This document shows positions 34,114 through 39,376 of a DNA stretch of 64,000 bases, piece by piece. The stretch lies in NCBI GenBank assembly GCA_021850485.1, contig JAJZLY010000025.1, positions 1-64,000 on the forward strand. The letters run 5' to 3'. The notes under the pieces were generated by a model, which saw nothing but the letters and a program-made list of their open reading frames with translations, ran no database searches and was not told the origin of the DNA. A program made the translations under genes and the position numbers. This DNA comes from Bacillota bacterium (GTDB taxonomy: Bacteria > Bacillota > Sulfobacillia > JAJZYS01 > JAJZLH01). Positions within the stretch are counted from its first letter, which is position 1; every line of letters starts with the position of its first letter.

Positions 34114-35004
34114 ATGATCACGGGACGGGTCCTGACGGCCATGGTCACTCCGTTCGGGCCAGATCTCAGCTTGGATCTGAAGCGGGCCCAAGCCCTGGCC
34201 GAACGCTTGGTGCGTTCTGGGTCCGACGGGCTGGTGCTGGCCGGAACCACCGGTGAGTCACCGACGCTGACCGAGGGGGAAAAGCTCTCCTTGTTCTCGG
34301 CGGTGCTGGAGGCGGTGGGTGATCGGGCGGTGGTGATCGCCAACACCGGCACCAACGACACCGTGCGTTCAGCCGCCTTCAGCCGCCAGGCCGCCGCCAC
34401 CGGCGTCCATGGCCTGATGGCGGTCGTCCCGTATTACAACAAGCCCTCTCAGGCGGGCATGCTGGCGCACTTCGAGACCATCTCGGCGGCCACTGACCTG
34501 CCGCTGATGGTCTATAACGTGCCATCGCGCACGGCCAGCAACCTGCTGCCCGAGACAGCGTCCGAATTGGCCAGCCGCTGCCCCAACGTCGCGGCTGTGA
34601 AAGAGGCGAGCGGGACCGTCGATCAGGCGGCAGAGCTGTGCCGCCTGCTACCCAGCCGCGTCGCCGTCTACTCCGGCGACGATAGCCTGACCCTGCCGCT
34701 GCTGGCGGTTGGCGCGTGCGGCGTTGTCTCGGTGGCCAGCCACCTGGTCGGCGAGCGCATTCAGCAGATGATCGAGGACTTCTTCTCCCAGCGCCATGCC
34801 GAGGCGACTGCCCACCACCGCCAGCTTCTGCCTCTATTTCGCGGATTGTTTGCCGCTCCGAACCCCTGCCCGGTCAAGGCCGCTTTGGCCATGTGCGGGT
34901 TTGCGGTCGGTGAGGGACGGTTGCCGTTGGTTGCGCTCAGCGCCAAGGAGAAAGAAGGACTCCGGAGTCTTCTGGCAGATCTCGGACTCCTGCCGACTGC
35001 CTGA
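34114..35004 (+). CDS. dapA: 4-hydroxy-tetrahydrodipicolinate synthase
   Basis: GTTGESPTLTEGEKLSL, PYYNKPSQAGMLAHF, YNVPSRTASNL, VAAVKEASGT. Confidence 0.96.
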   Translation: MITGRVLTAMVTPFGPDLSLDLKRAQALAERLVRSGSDGLVLAGTTGESPTLTEGEKLSLFSAVLEAVGDRAVVIANTGTNDTVRSAAFSRQAAATGVHGLMAVVPYYNKPSQAGMLAHFETISAATDLPLMVYNVPSRTASNLLPETASELASRCPNVAAVKEASGTVDQAAELCRLLPSRVAVYSGDDSLTLPLLAVGACGVVSVASHLVGERIQQMIEDFFSQRHAEATAHHRQLLPLFRGLFAAPNPCPVKAALAMCGFAVGEGRLPLVALSAKEKEGLRSLLADLGLLPTA

Positions 35005-35095
35005 GCGCGCCTGGCGTCTTGCGGCGGCGATGACGCATCGCGCTGTCTGGCGCTTATACTCAGACTCATACCAGAGGTGCCGGGAAGGGGGGGTG

Positions 35096-35818
35096 GTGGT
35101 GAAAGTTGGGCGGCTACCCCTGTGGGTGGCGCTTGTCAGTTGGTGCGCCATGCTGGTGCTGATTGGGCTGGTCACCGCCTACGCCGTGCCGCTGCACTCT
35201 GCCTTTTGGCTTCGGATGCTCCCCTGGCTGTTGGCCCGCACCTCCGGCCTGGCTGCCTTTGTGTTGCTCACCTTGATCGTCGTGCTGGGCATTTTGCTCT
35301 CACATCCTCGCAATCTGGTGGAGTGGAAATTCTCCAAGATCATCATCGTCTGGCACCGCTATCTCACCGTCTTGACCTTTGGCCTGGTCGCCCTGCACAT
35401 TGGGGCGATCATCGCCGACTCCTATGCCAAAGTGGGCCTTTTGGGGGCGGCCATCCCCGGGCTGTCCGCCTATCGCACCTTGCCCGTGGCCCTGGGCACC
35501 ATTACCCTTTACGGTATGATCCTGCTGACTACCACAGCCGCCAATCCGAAGTGGCTGGGCGGGGCCCGCTGGCTGACGGTGCATCGTTTTTCCATCGCCG
35601 TTTTTGTCGTAGCCTGGATGCATGGGGTGCTGGCCGGAACGGACACGCTGGCTTTCACGCCTATGTACATTCTGGCTGGCGGTGCTGTCGGTTTTGCGTA
35701 CGCCGGACGCTGGTGGATTGACCGGACGCTGCCACCGCGACCGGACCCTGGGCCTGCCCGCACTGCCCCACTAGAGCGTACGGACGGTACGAGTGCGATC
35801 CCCGGGGGTACAAGCTGA
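35096..35818 (+). CDS. Ferric-reductase-like transmembrane protein, four putative heme His
   Basis: Multi-TM; paired His in two helices: WHRYLTVLTFGLVALH and VHRFSIAVFVVAWMH (spacings 14 and 13); no cytosolic FAD/NAD domain. GTG start, 35096 or 35099. Confidence 0.8.
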   Translation: MVKVGRLPLWVALVSWCAMLVLIGLVTAYAVPLHSAFWLRMLPWLLARTSGLAAFVLLTLIVVLGILLSHPRNLVEWKFSKIIIVWHRYLTVLTFGLVALHIGAIIADSYAKVGLLGAAIPGLSAYRTLPVALGTITLYGMILLTTTAANPKWLGGARWLTVHRFSIAVFVVAWMHGVLAGTDTLAFTPMYILAGGAVGFAYAGRWWIDRTLPPRPDPGPARTAPLERTDGTSAIPGGTS

Positions 35819-36201
35819 TGAGACGTGGACTACGGCAGATCCTGGTGGTGACAGGGGTGGTCTCGGCGCTGGCCGCCGGCAGCGACGCACTGCTGGTGGC
35901 GCAGCATGAGCCGCCGCCGACCACGGTCGCCCGCACCGCCAGTCAACTCAGCCAGGTGTTGGCCAAGCAACAACAGGTGAATGCCACGCTGACTGCCACC
36001 ATCAGCGCTCAGGCCACGAGCAGCGTACAGTTGACTGCTCAGGCCCAGAGCTTGGAAGCGCAGATTGCCACAGGAATGGCTGCACTCAAACGGATGAACC
36101 TGGCCTCACCTTCGGTTTTGGCTCCGGTGGTCAAGGCTCAGACTGTAACCGGGGCCTCTGGGGGCGGAGGAGGGGACACCAGCAGTGGCGGAGACAACTG
36201 A
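35818..36201 (+). CDS. Small N-terminally anchored coiled-coil protein with Gly-rich C-terminal TGASG tail
   Basis: Start overlaps the upstream stop; TM-like ILVVTGVVSALAAG; Q/A-rich heptad-like segment; tail VVKAQTVTGASGGGGGDTSSGGDN. Confidence 0.7.
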   Translation: MRRGLRQILVVTGVVSALAAGSDALLVAQHEPPPTTVARTASQLSQVLAKQQQVNATLTATISAQATSSVQLTAQAQSLEAQIATGMAALKRMNLASPSVLAPVVKAQTVTGASGGGGGDTSSGGDN

Positions 36202-36577
36202 CGGCGTCCAGTGGCATCGGTTGCGCCTTGGCGTCGGTGCGGTGGCGGTTGCCTATACCGTGTTACTGCAGCCAGTAGCGAGCAGCCTGCGAGCCCTGGA
36301 TGCCTCCTACACCCGCCAAGCTCAGATGGTCCACGAAATTCAGGTTTTGGAACGAAAAAACCTCAGTTTGGAAGCAACCATCAAGCGGGCCGATCAGAGC
36401 CTGCACAATAAGGCTCGGGTGCTGGCCCAGCTGTCGGCCCAACTCGCCGCCATCCAGCGCCAGGAGCAAACCATTTCCGCACAGATTCAAATCTCAGCCG
36501 GACCGACTGTGACCTTGCCCAGCACGGGCGGCAGCTTGCAGCCGGTCACCACCACTGGGGCCTCTGGTAAACCATGA
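36185..36577 (+). CDS. Small N-terminally anchored coiled-coil protein with C-terminal TGASG tail
   Basis: GTG start overlaps the previous gene; TM-like LGVGAVAVAYTVLLQPVA; long coiled coil; tail SLQPVTTTGASGKP. Confidence 0.7.
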   Translation: MAETTDGVQWHRLRLGVGAVAVAYTVLLQPVASSLRALDASYTRQAQMVHEIQVLERKNLSLEATIKRADQSLHNKARVLAQLSAQLAAIQRQEQTISAQIQISAGPTVTLPSTGGSLQPVTTTGASGKP

Positions 36578-37515
36578 CCGAAGCCGCTCCCGGGGACTTT
36601 CGCTGGCGGGCGATGGCGTCGCCAGTTCAGCTCTTGGTGCCGGACCTGCCCGCTGATCTAGGCCGCGTGCTTGCCTCGGCCGTCGCCCGGGATCTGCTGG
36701 ACAGCGAGCAGGCGATGTCCCGATTTTGGGCGAGTAGTGATCTGTGGCGTGCGAATAGTTCCTTGGGCGAGTGGGTGACTGTTCCCAGGCGGCTGGTTCA
36801 GGCCCTGGCATTGGCCGAGCGGGCCCGGCGCATCACGAATGGTTTGTTCGATGCAGCAGTGCTGACCACACTGGAAGCATACGGCTATCCGGGAGCCCCA
36901 CTTCCTGCGTCTCAATATCAGCCGCCAAACGGCGCCCGAGTTCGACTTGCTCCTCGTCAGGGACTGGCCCGCCTGGAGCAGCCGATCGACCTGGGCGGTA
37001 TCGGCAAGGGCCTGGCCCTGCGCTGGGCTGGACGGATTGCCAGCGAACAGACTCAGACGTTTCTCCTCAACGCCGGCGGCGACATCGTGATGAAGGGCGG
37101 CGGCGGAGACGGGGCTGGCTGGCTGGTGGGCGTAGAGGATCCGTTCGACCTCGCGGCCGTGCGCGCAGTACTGCGCCTGAGCGGCGACCTGGCTTGTTGC
37201 ACCTCATCATTGGCCCGCAGGCGCTGGCTACGAGAAGGCCGCCAGGTTCACCACCTGATTGACCCGCGTACCCAACAGCCAGCCGAGGTCGACCTGATGG
37301 CCGTGACGGTGGTCGGGCCGGATCCTGCTTGGGCTGAGGTGTACTCCAAGGTGCTCTTCATGCATGGCTCGGACGCGATCGCCGAGAGGGCAGGGCAATG
37401 GGCCGTTTTGTGGATCGATGCCGAGGGCCGCATCGGCTGGACCGAGGCCATGCAGCCGCTGATTGCAGCCCTCAGTCCGGTGCCTAAACCCGAGGCGTCC
37501 TTGCCACAAGGGTAG
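36574..37515 (+). CDS. ApbE-like FAD:protein FMN transferase (divergent)
   Basis: MASPVQ, EQAMSRFWASSDLWRAN, TNGLFDAAVL, IDLGGIGKGLALRWA, FLLNAGGDIVMKG, HHLIDPRTQQPAEVDLMAVTVVGP. Confidence 0.85.
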   Translation: MTEAAPGDFRWRAMASPVQLLVPDLPADLGRVLASAVARDLLDSEQAMSRFWASSDLWRANSSLGEWVTVPRRLVQALALAERARRITNGLFDAAVLTTLEAYGYPGAPLPASQYQPPNGARVRLAPRQGLARLEQPIDLGGIGKGLALRWAGRIASEQTQTFLLNAGGDIVMKGGGGDGAGWLVGVEDPFDLAAVRAVLRLSGDLACCTSSLARRRWLREGRQVHHLIDPRTQQPAEVDLMAVTVVGPDPAWAEVYSKVLFMHGSDAIAERAGQWAVLWIDAEGRIGWTEAMQPLIAALSPVPKPEASLPQG

Positions 37516-37557
37516 CGATGTGCCATAGTGTCGGCAGGTTGATCAGATCGGACTGAA

Positions 37558-37668: not shown

Positions 37669-37711
37669 CTACGGTGAATGTGTGCACAGACCCAATTTGA
37701 GGAGGAGAATT

Positions 37712-39376
37712 GTGCCCAAGAAGGATCGGCTGCGTGTCATTGCGCTGGGCGGACTCGGCGAGATTGGCAAGAACATGATGGTTTACGAGTATGACGACGA
37801 GATCGTGGTGATCGACGCCGGACTGGCTTTTCCTGACGACGACATGTTTGGCATCGACTATGTGATTCCCGACATCTCCTATCTGGTCGAGAACAAGGAC
37901 AAGGTACGCGGCATCTTTTTGACCCACGGCCATGAGGACCACATCGGCGCCCTACCCTACGTGCTGCAGCAGCTGGACGTGCCGATTTTCACCGGCCGCC
38001 TCACCCTGGGCATGATCAAGCGCAAGCTGCAAGAGCACGGCCTAGCCCCGAACAAGGACTCGCGAGAGATCAATCCGGGCGAGTTGATCCGCTTCAAGCA
38101 CCTGGCTCTAGTCGCCTTTCGGGTCAACCACTCGATCCCGGACGCGGTCGGCTTCCTGATCGACACACCGGTTGGTCGGATCGTCCACACCGGTGACTTC
38201 AAATTCGATCAAACACCGGTGGACGGCCAGGTGGCTGACTTTTTCCGGCTGACTGAGATCGGCCAAAAAGGTGTCCTGGCCTTGTTTGCAGATTCCACCA
38301 ACGCCGAGCGGCCTGGCTTCACGGGCTCAGAAAAAGCCGTGGGCGGCGTGCTGGAAGACGTGATCCGGGCGGCCACCGGCCGCGTGTTCGTGGCCTCGTT
38401 CGCCTCCAATGTGCACCGCATTCAACAGGTCATCTCGGTCGCTGCCAAGTTGGGGCGCAAGGTGGCCATTTTAGGGCGCTCGATGGAGAACGTGGTCAGC
38501 GTGGCCATCGAGCTTGGCTATCTGCAAGTGCCTGAGGCCACGATCATTCCGATCGACGAGGTGTCACGCTTCACCCCGGCCCAACTGGTGATCCTCACCA
38601 CCGGCTCCCAAGGCGAGCCGATGGCGGCGCTCTCCCGGATGGCCAGCGCCGAACACAAGCGAATCGAGATCGTCACCGGCGACACCGTGATCATCGCCGC
38701 CACCCCGATTCCGGGCAACGAGCGACTTGTCGGCAAAACCATCAACAACCTCTACAAGCGGGGCGCCACAGTGGTGAACAGTGCAATGGCCGGCGTCCAC
38801 GTGTCGGGACACGCCAGCCAAGAGGAATTGAAACTGATGCACACGTTCATCCGACCGAAGTTTTTCATTCCGGTGCACGGTGAGTATCGCCACCTGATCC
38901 GCCATCGCCAGCTGGCAGAGGCCATGGGCATGCCCCGCGAGAACATCCTGATCGGCGACAACGGCAGCGTGTTCGAGTTCACCAAGGACAGTGCGGAGAT
39001 TTCCGGACGGGTGCAGGCCGGCCCGGTGTTCATCGACGGCTTGGGCGTCGGCGACGTCGGCCATATTGTGCTCAGAGATCGCAAGTTGCTGGCGGAAGAC
39101 GGCGTGATCGTCGTGGTCCTGGCCATCGACCGCAGCTCCAACCAGCTGATCGGCGGCCCGGACATCGTCAGCCGTGGCTTTGTCTACGTGAGGGAGTCAG
39201 ACGCCCTATTGGACGAGGCCAAGCAGCGGATCCGCGACAGCATCGAGCAGGCTGACTCCCAGGTGGTAGGGGATTGGTCGAACCTCAAGGGACTGGTCCG
39301 GGAGACGCTGGGCCGCTTTCTGTACGAAAAGACCCGCCGCCGTCCGATGATCCTGCCGATCGTGGTCGAGGCTTAG
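37712..39376 (+). CDS. rnj: Ribonuclease J
   Basis: VIALGGLGEIGKNMMVYEYDDEIVVIDAGLAFP, LTHGHEDHIGALPYVL, HTGDFKFDQTPVDG, HVSGHASQEELK. Confidence 0.96.
   Translation: MPKKDRLRVIALGGLGEIGKNMMVYEYDDEIVVIDAGLAFPDDDMFGIDYVIPDISYLVENKDKVRGIFLTHGHEDHIGALPYVLQQLDVPIFTGRLTLGMIKRKLQEHGLAPNKDSREINPGELIRFKHLALVAFRVNHSIPDAVGFLIDTPVGRIVHTGDFKFDQTPVDGQVADFFRLTEIGQKGVLALFADSTNAERPGFTGSEKAVGGVLEDVIRAATGRVFVASFASNVHRIQQVISVAAKLGRKVAILGRSMENVVSVAIELGYLQVPEATIIPIDEVSRFTPAQLVILTTGSQGEPMAALSRMASAEHKRIEIVTGDTVIIAATPIPGNERLVGKTINNLYKRGATVVNSAMAGVHVSGHASQEELKLMHTFIRPKFFIPVHGEYRHLIRHRQLAEAMGMPRENILIGDNGSVFEFTKDSAEISGRVQAGPVFIDGLGVGDVGHIVLRDRKLLAEDGVIVVVLAIDRSSNQLIGGPDIVSRGFVYVRESDALLDEAKQRIRDSIEQADSQVVGDWSNLKGLVRETLGRFLYEKTRRRPMILPIVVEA

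Follow-up and report, generated by a model that had tools for sequence, protein, structure and literature searches.

ApbE flavin transferases recognise the motif [S/T]GA[S/T] and modify its last residue (PMC8238504). Only seven residues are needed by the enzyme, terminal tags work best, and replacement of the Asp by Ala in one ApbE substrate had minor effects (reviewed in PMC12052999). The described systems most similar to the locus studied here are the MsrQ-like clusters, which combine PF01794, apbE and FMN_bind, and which come from a 2021 survey that filtered out apbE genes without signal peptides (Meheust et al., PMC8238504). Flavinylation-like motifs have additionally been reported on a C-terminal extension of FMN_red proteins encoded beside ApbE (PMC10979944).

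We analysed a 64,000-nucleotide stretch of a contig from a Bacillota bacterium, hereafter the window. Between dapA (ending at 35004) and rnj (open reading frame from 37682) it contains four overlapping genes on the + strand (35096-37515), as an earlier note on this DNA had described. These encode a membrane protein, TM (35096..35818, 240 aa, GTG start, with a start at 35093 also possible); two small proteins, CC1 (35818..36201, 127 aa, ATG) and CC2 (36185..36577, 130 aa, GTG); and ApbE (36574..37515, 313 aa, ATG). The CC1 start overlaps the TM stop by 1 nt, and the CC1/CC2 and CC2/apbE overlaps are 17 nt and 4 nt; at other loci the gene order differs, with TM in first or last place. Judging from the sequence, this cassette is probably a compact electron-transfer set related to the MsrQ-like systems, in which FMN would be carried on a bare C-terminal tail and not on an FMN_bind domain.

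The fourth gene, previously noted as ApbE-like, belongs to the FAD:protein FMN transferase family, with a clear match to PF02424 (148.2 bits, cut-off 25.6), and a profile search with its product finds solved ApbEs. The HHLIDP region is invariant in 10 orthologues; the Asp and Thr of the DAxxT stretch of solved ApbEs are Glu and Lys in the window protein, a difference that may bear on metal binding and counts against our reading. The absence of a signal peptide, remarked on in the earlier note, is real. Only 12 residues separate the start of the window protein from its first conserved motif, and the cassette ApbEs with a placeable start have approximately 5-25 residues there, with no hydrophobic segment seen. 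From this distance we rejected the idea of a signal peptide hidden by a misplaced start. A hydrophobic N-terminal segment is present in ApbEs of the same class that occur in RNF contexts. The lack of a signal peptide does not seem unique to the cassette, as ApbEs of this class beside SGAT/FMN_bind-like proteins (L092-L094) also seem to be without a strong one. The cassette ApbE, having no signal peptide, therefore probably acts in the cytosol.

For TM, we found the two His pairs that had been proposed for this protein, H87-x13-H101 (35354..35398, +) and H163-x12-H176 (35582..35623, +). All four residues are invariant across 20 homologues, which share 23-45% identity with the window protein; we take these as the first and second candidate heme-ligand pairs. 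No Pfam match to PF01794 was obtained for the window protein, which counts against our reading, and two homologues score below the cut-off of 28 bits (25.4 and 19.6). A further homologue, L117, passes at 33 bits, and the window TM aligns to it at 2e-11. An AlphaFold model (pLDDT 87) gave nine best Foldseek matches in the PDB that are all NOX, DUOX or STEAP proteins, with probabilities of 0.92-1.00; the same matches are weak by E value (0.03-0.4) and query TM-score (0.33-0.51), again counting against us. ApbE adjoins the TM homologue in 9/9 loci read from a phylum search. TM thus appears to be a ferric-reductase-like membrane protein, devoid of an FAD/NAD domain, that may bind heme. We additionally noted a second ApbE beside the TM homologue at several loci (L046-L048, L050, L051, L096-L098 and L101), and a longer TM in L047, L048 and L050, with a C-terminal extension that does not contain [ST]GA[ST].

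CC1 and CC2 each begin with a hydrophobic segment. In CC1 this is followed by a helical stalk and an acidic, Gly-rich tail, and in CC2 by a helix of about 99 residues and a disordered C-terminal tail. The single-chain AlphaFold model of CC2 (mean pLDDT 85) consists of one helix, residues 6-104, and a disordered tail that contains the motif, which would place the candidate site on a free tail at the tip of a long stalk. The two proteins may pair as coiled coils. Neither was assigned to a Pfam or NCBIfam family, and matches to GAS, DUF3450, GspM and SMC were set aside as weak, ordinary coiled-coil similarity. Differences between close relatives of both genes fall in excess at the third codon position, as in real genes. 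Tat export of CC1 was also considered and rejected, the twin Arg in its N-terminus not being conserved.

According to the earlier note both small proteins end in TGASG. TGAS does lie near both C-termini, and neither protein literally ends in TGASG: CC2 terminates in TGASGKP, three residues past TGAS (36554..36565, +; Ser codon 36563-36565), and in CC1 a 13-residue Gly/Asp-rich tail (TGASGGGGGDTSSGGDN) follows TGAS (36148..36159, +; Ser codon 36157-36159). Both are candidate flavinylation sites. The note had also asked whether TGAS is conserved in orthologues, and for CC2 we found [ST]GA[ST] followed by no more than four residues in 22/26 homologues, against 0.09 expected from shuffled tails; the four exceptions end in TRGS, TGGSGKP, TTASGKPC and TGAGGR. 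Upstream of the motif the CC2 sequences are on median 27% identical in pairwise comparison and form 16 clusters at 40%; in a 24-sequence alignment, no columns other than TGAS and two prolines reach 90% conservation. The CC2 set was curated by reading loci, often by the tails themselves, so that 22/26 is somewhat favourable; at one locus at least, L160, no CC2 could be called. A later search that recovered the operons L197-L200 is a cleaner test, and the tail motif was present in 4/4 (TGASVVVP, TGASVVLP, TGATVVIP and SGASGAYR).

The motif is also found in 14/22 CC1 homologues, against 0.83 expected from shuffles. Its absence from 8/22 CC1 and 4/26 CC2 homologues counts against our reading, as do the residues at the upstream Asp position of the window tails, which are Gln in CC1 and Val in CC2. 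The lack of this Asp had been pointed out before; it holds for the window, yet a complete DxxTGAS occurs in three CC1 orthologues of one close group (L040, DTTTGAS; L041, DTFTGAS; L083, DTVTGAS). The acceptor position is occupied by Thr in the TGAT tail of L199 and in SGAT in the CC1 of L176.

We identified an empty site for the cassette in two genomes of the same genus, in which rnj directly follows dapA. DNA similarity between these genomes and the window ends at 34939/34942 and resumes at 37519/37515, that is, it breaks at the cassette edges, indicating that the four genes move as a unit. In these two genomes the window ApbE gave no match, nor did TM at E 1e-12. In three further genomes of the order dapA also adjoins rnj, and one of them, G005, has the cassette elsewhere. 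The simplest reading would be that the set was inserted in the lineage of the window. In this region the rnj protein (window 37682-39376) is 97% identical to those of the same-genus loci L187 and L188, and asd, aspartate kinase and dapA are at 71-83%.

The cassette is present in Bacillota relatives (L033, L038-L041 and L083-L087). A scan of contigs from named genomes with the TM alignment A3 additionally identified it in metagenome-assembled genomes labelled Chloroflexi, Thermomicrobiales, Acidimicrobiaceae, Actinomycetes, Frankiaceae, Myxococcales and Alicyclobacillaceae; the same contigs scanned with a single ApbE sequence gave no match. As such labels are not always right, we take the distribution to be broad without claiming exactness. 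The cassette is uncommon, a close ApbE being found in 5/296 genomes of the class to which one Acidimicrobiaceae genome belongs. We also observed close ApbE orthologues with no TM or CC genes nearby (L032 and L034-L037), whose neighbours include a molybdopterin-oxidoreductase-like gene (L032, L035) and secreted repeat proteins (L034, L036, L037).

These data bear on three other explanations of the tails. That TGAS is a chance product of low-complexity tails rich in Ala, Ser, Thr and Gly is scarcely credible: the tails are indeed of low complexity, and approximately 4% of shuffled 60-residue tails contain the motif somewhere, but the conservation at the CC2 C-terminus, far above the shuffled expectation, and the four later operons refute this. 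It is also improbable that ApbE modifies another protein of the genome, with the TGAS tails serving in docking or stalk assembly instead. The genome that contains the window (97% complete, 33 contigs) has a single PF02424 match, the cassette ApbE. Searches for three substrate domains found no FMN_bind (PF04205, at E <= 10), DUF2271 or NqrB/RnfD, and with this as the sole ApbE no rival substrate is evident among them, on a point that the earlier note had raised. The idea draws on the shortness of the motif, on the Asp-less window tails, on the loss of the motif in some homologues and on the scope of the genome searches, which covered these three domains. Against it, what is conserved in CC2 is the motif, the cassette genes move as a unit with their ApbE, and the exchange of Ser and Thr at the acceptor position fits a hydroxyl acceptor.

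The remaining explanation concerns the side of the membrane, where exported tails are difficult to reconcile with an ApbE that probably works in the cytosol. Either FMN would be attached before export, or the CC tails stay inside, and this is the main puzzle of the cassette. The proteins might be oriented N-out and C-in, so that flavinylated cytosolic tails replace the missing FAD/NAD domain and electrons pass from a cytosolic reductase to the FMN tails and on to the hemes. The cassette ApbEs without signal peptides and the lack of an FAD/NAD domain in TM both favour this orientation, as do 7/26 CC2 homologues, including that of the window, in which the N-flank of the hydrophobic segment is no more positive than the C-flank. 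We nevertheless consider it unlikely, as the N-flank is the more positive in 22/22 CC1 homologues and the flanks predict C-out for 19/26 CC2 homologues, all by a simple charge-flank rule and not by a topology predictor.

We therefore retain a reading with external flavin tails, which the earlier note had put forward as flavin-carrying stalks and which is supported, as a working hypothesis, by conservation, genome context and the empty site. In this scheme ApbE, probably in the cytosol, would use FAD to attach FMN to the Ser of TGAS in CC1 and CC2. The two proteins would be anchored by their N-terminal hydrophobic segments, with stalk and tail predicted outside, and the modified tails would be exported. 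TM would take electrons across the membrane through two b-type hemes held by the two His pairs, and the flavin tails would accept these electrons and hand them to an external acceptor. The gene set, the conserved motif, the His pairs, the missing signal peptide and the movement as a unit are apparent in the DNA and its translations; FMN attachment, topology, heme binding, direction of flow, donor and acceptor are what we infer for the scheme. Fe(III) as the acceptor is only a guess.

More distant TM homologues lie in operons of a small protein, ApbE and TM, in a Paenibacillus-like family (a tentative name) and in other Bacillota (L117-L124, L129-L158, L044 and L116). We picked the upstream small open reading frame by position, length and hydrophobicity alone, ignoring the tail, which gave a candidate in 24/37 loci (18 clusters). 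All 18/18 clusters have [ST]xxS at the last residue, against 0.83 expected. At the 13 unpicked loci most small proteins fall under the hydrophobicity cut-off and, by eye, end in RTGAS. Some of the distant tails are exactly RTGAS, and others are STGRS, TRTERS, SSTRTS or RTRRS. If such [ST]xxS tails are also ApbE sites, the enzyme is less strict in its recognition than has been described. In L082 (2593-2892, -) and L089 (5294-5590, -), directly before the ApbE orthologue, lies a gene for an unrelated small protein with TGASG at its end, and in L037 (6960-7562, -) a related [ST]GASG tail is found some 3 kb from the ApbE orthologue, near multi-TM proteins.

It is possible, if somewhat doubtful, that ApbEs of a widespread class target a hydroxyl on or close to the last residue of anchored proteins that have no domain, [ST]xxS-COOH tails in Paenibacillaceae and other Bacillota among them, and that these proteins are flavinylated in the cytosol before export. 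Were such a class to exist, recognition would have no need of Gly-Ala, and no FAD exporter would be required to bring covalent flavin to the outside.

The cassette looks like an overlooked bacterial way of attaching a redox cofactor to nothing more than a protein tail, and it provides a concrete, testable candidate substrate for ApbEs that fall outside the signal-peptide filter of the 2021 survey. If confirmed, it would represent a minimal terminal flavin tag used in nature itself, give bacterial electron transfer a carrier without a domain, and prompt one to ask how a transferase in the cytosol can act on a tail seemingly located outside. Some carriers are labelled Acidimicrobiaceae and Alicyclobacillaceae, groups that include acidophilic Fe(III) reducers, and how such organisms reduce iron is largely unsettled (PMC8790237); a link of the cassette to iron is speculation.

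We did not find a description of the cassette in open-access papers, by which its novelty is not proven, and several known systems resemble it in part. As in the MsrQ-like clusters (PMC8238504), ApbE stands beside a membrane protein with two His pairs, and in neither is cytochrome c needed. The MsrQ-like clusters have FMN_bind, whereas in the cassette small, anchored proteins of the coiled-coil type carry the motif in a disordered C-terminal tail; the cassette differs additionally in an ApbE without a signal peptide, in the lack of an NAD-binding domain, and in a window TM that stays under the Pfam cut-off. The DUF2271 and DUF3570 substrates (PMC8238504) were, like CC1 and CC2, found through a conserved [ST]GA[ST] beside an orphan apbE. 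For these, which are defined Pfam domains, flavinylation has been demonstrated by experiment, whereas CC1 and CC2 match no Pfam family and are candidate substrates. The FMN_red proteins (PMC10979944) share with the cassette a motif on an unstructured C-terminal stretch, although their extension adjoins a flavin-binding fold and the cassette has no folded flavin domain at all. Finally, with the seven-residue Flavin-tag (PMC12052999) ApbE needs no more than a short terminal peptide, as would be the case for the sites proposed here; the tag is engineered, and the cassette, with window tails that have no Asp, would be its natural counterpart.
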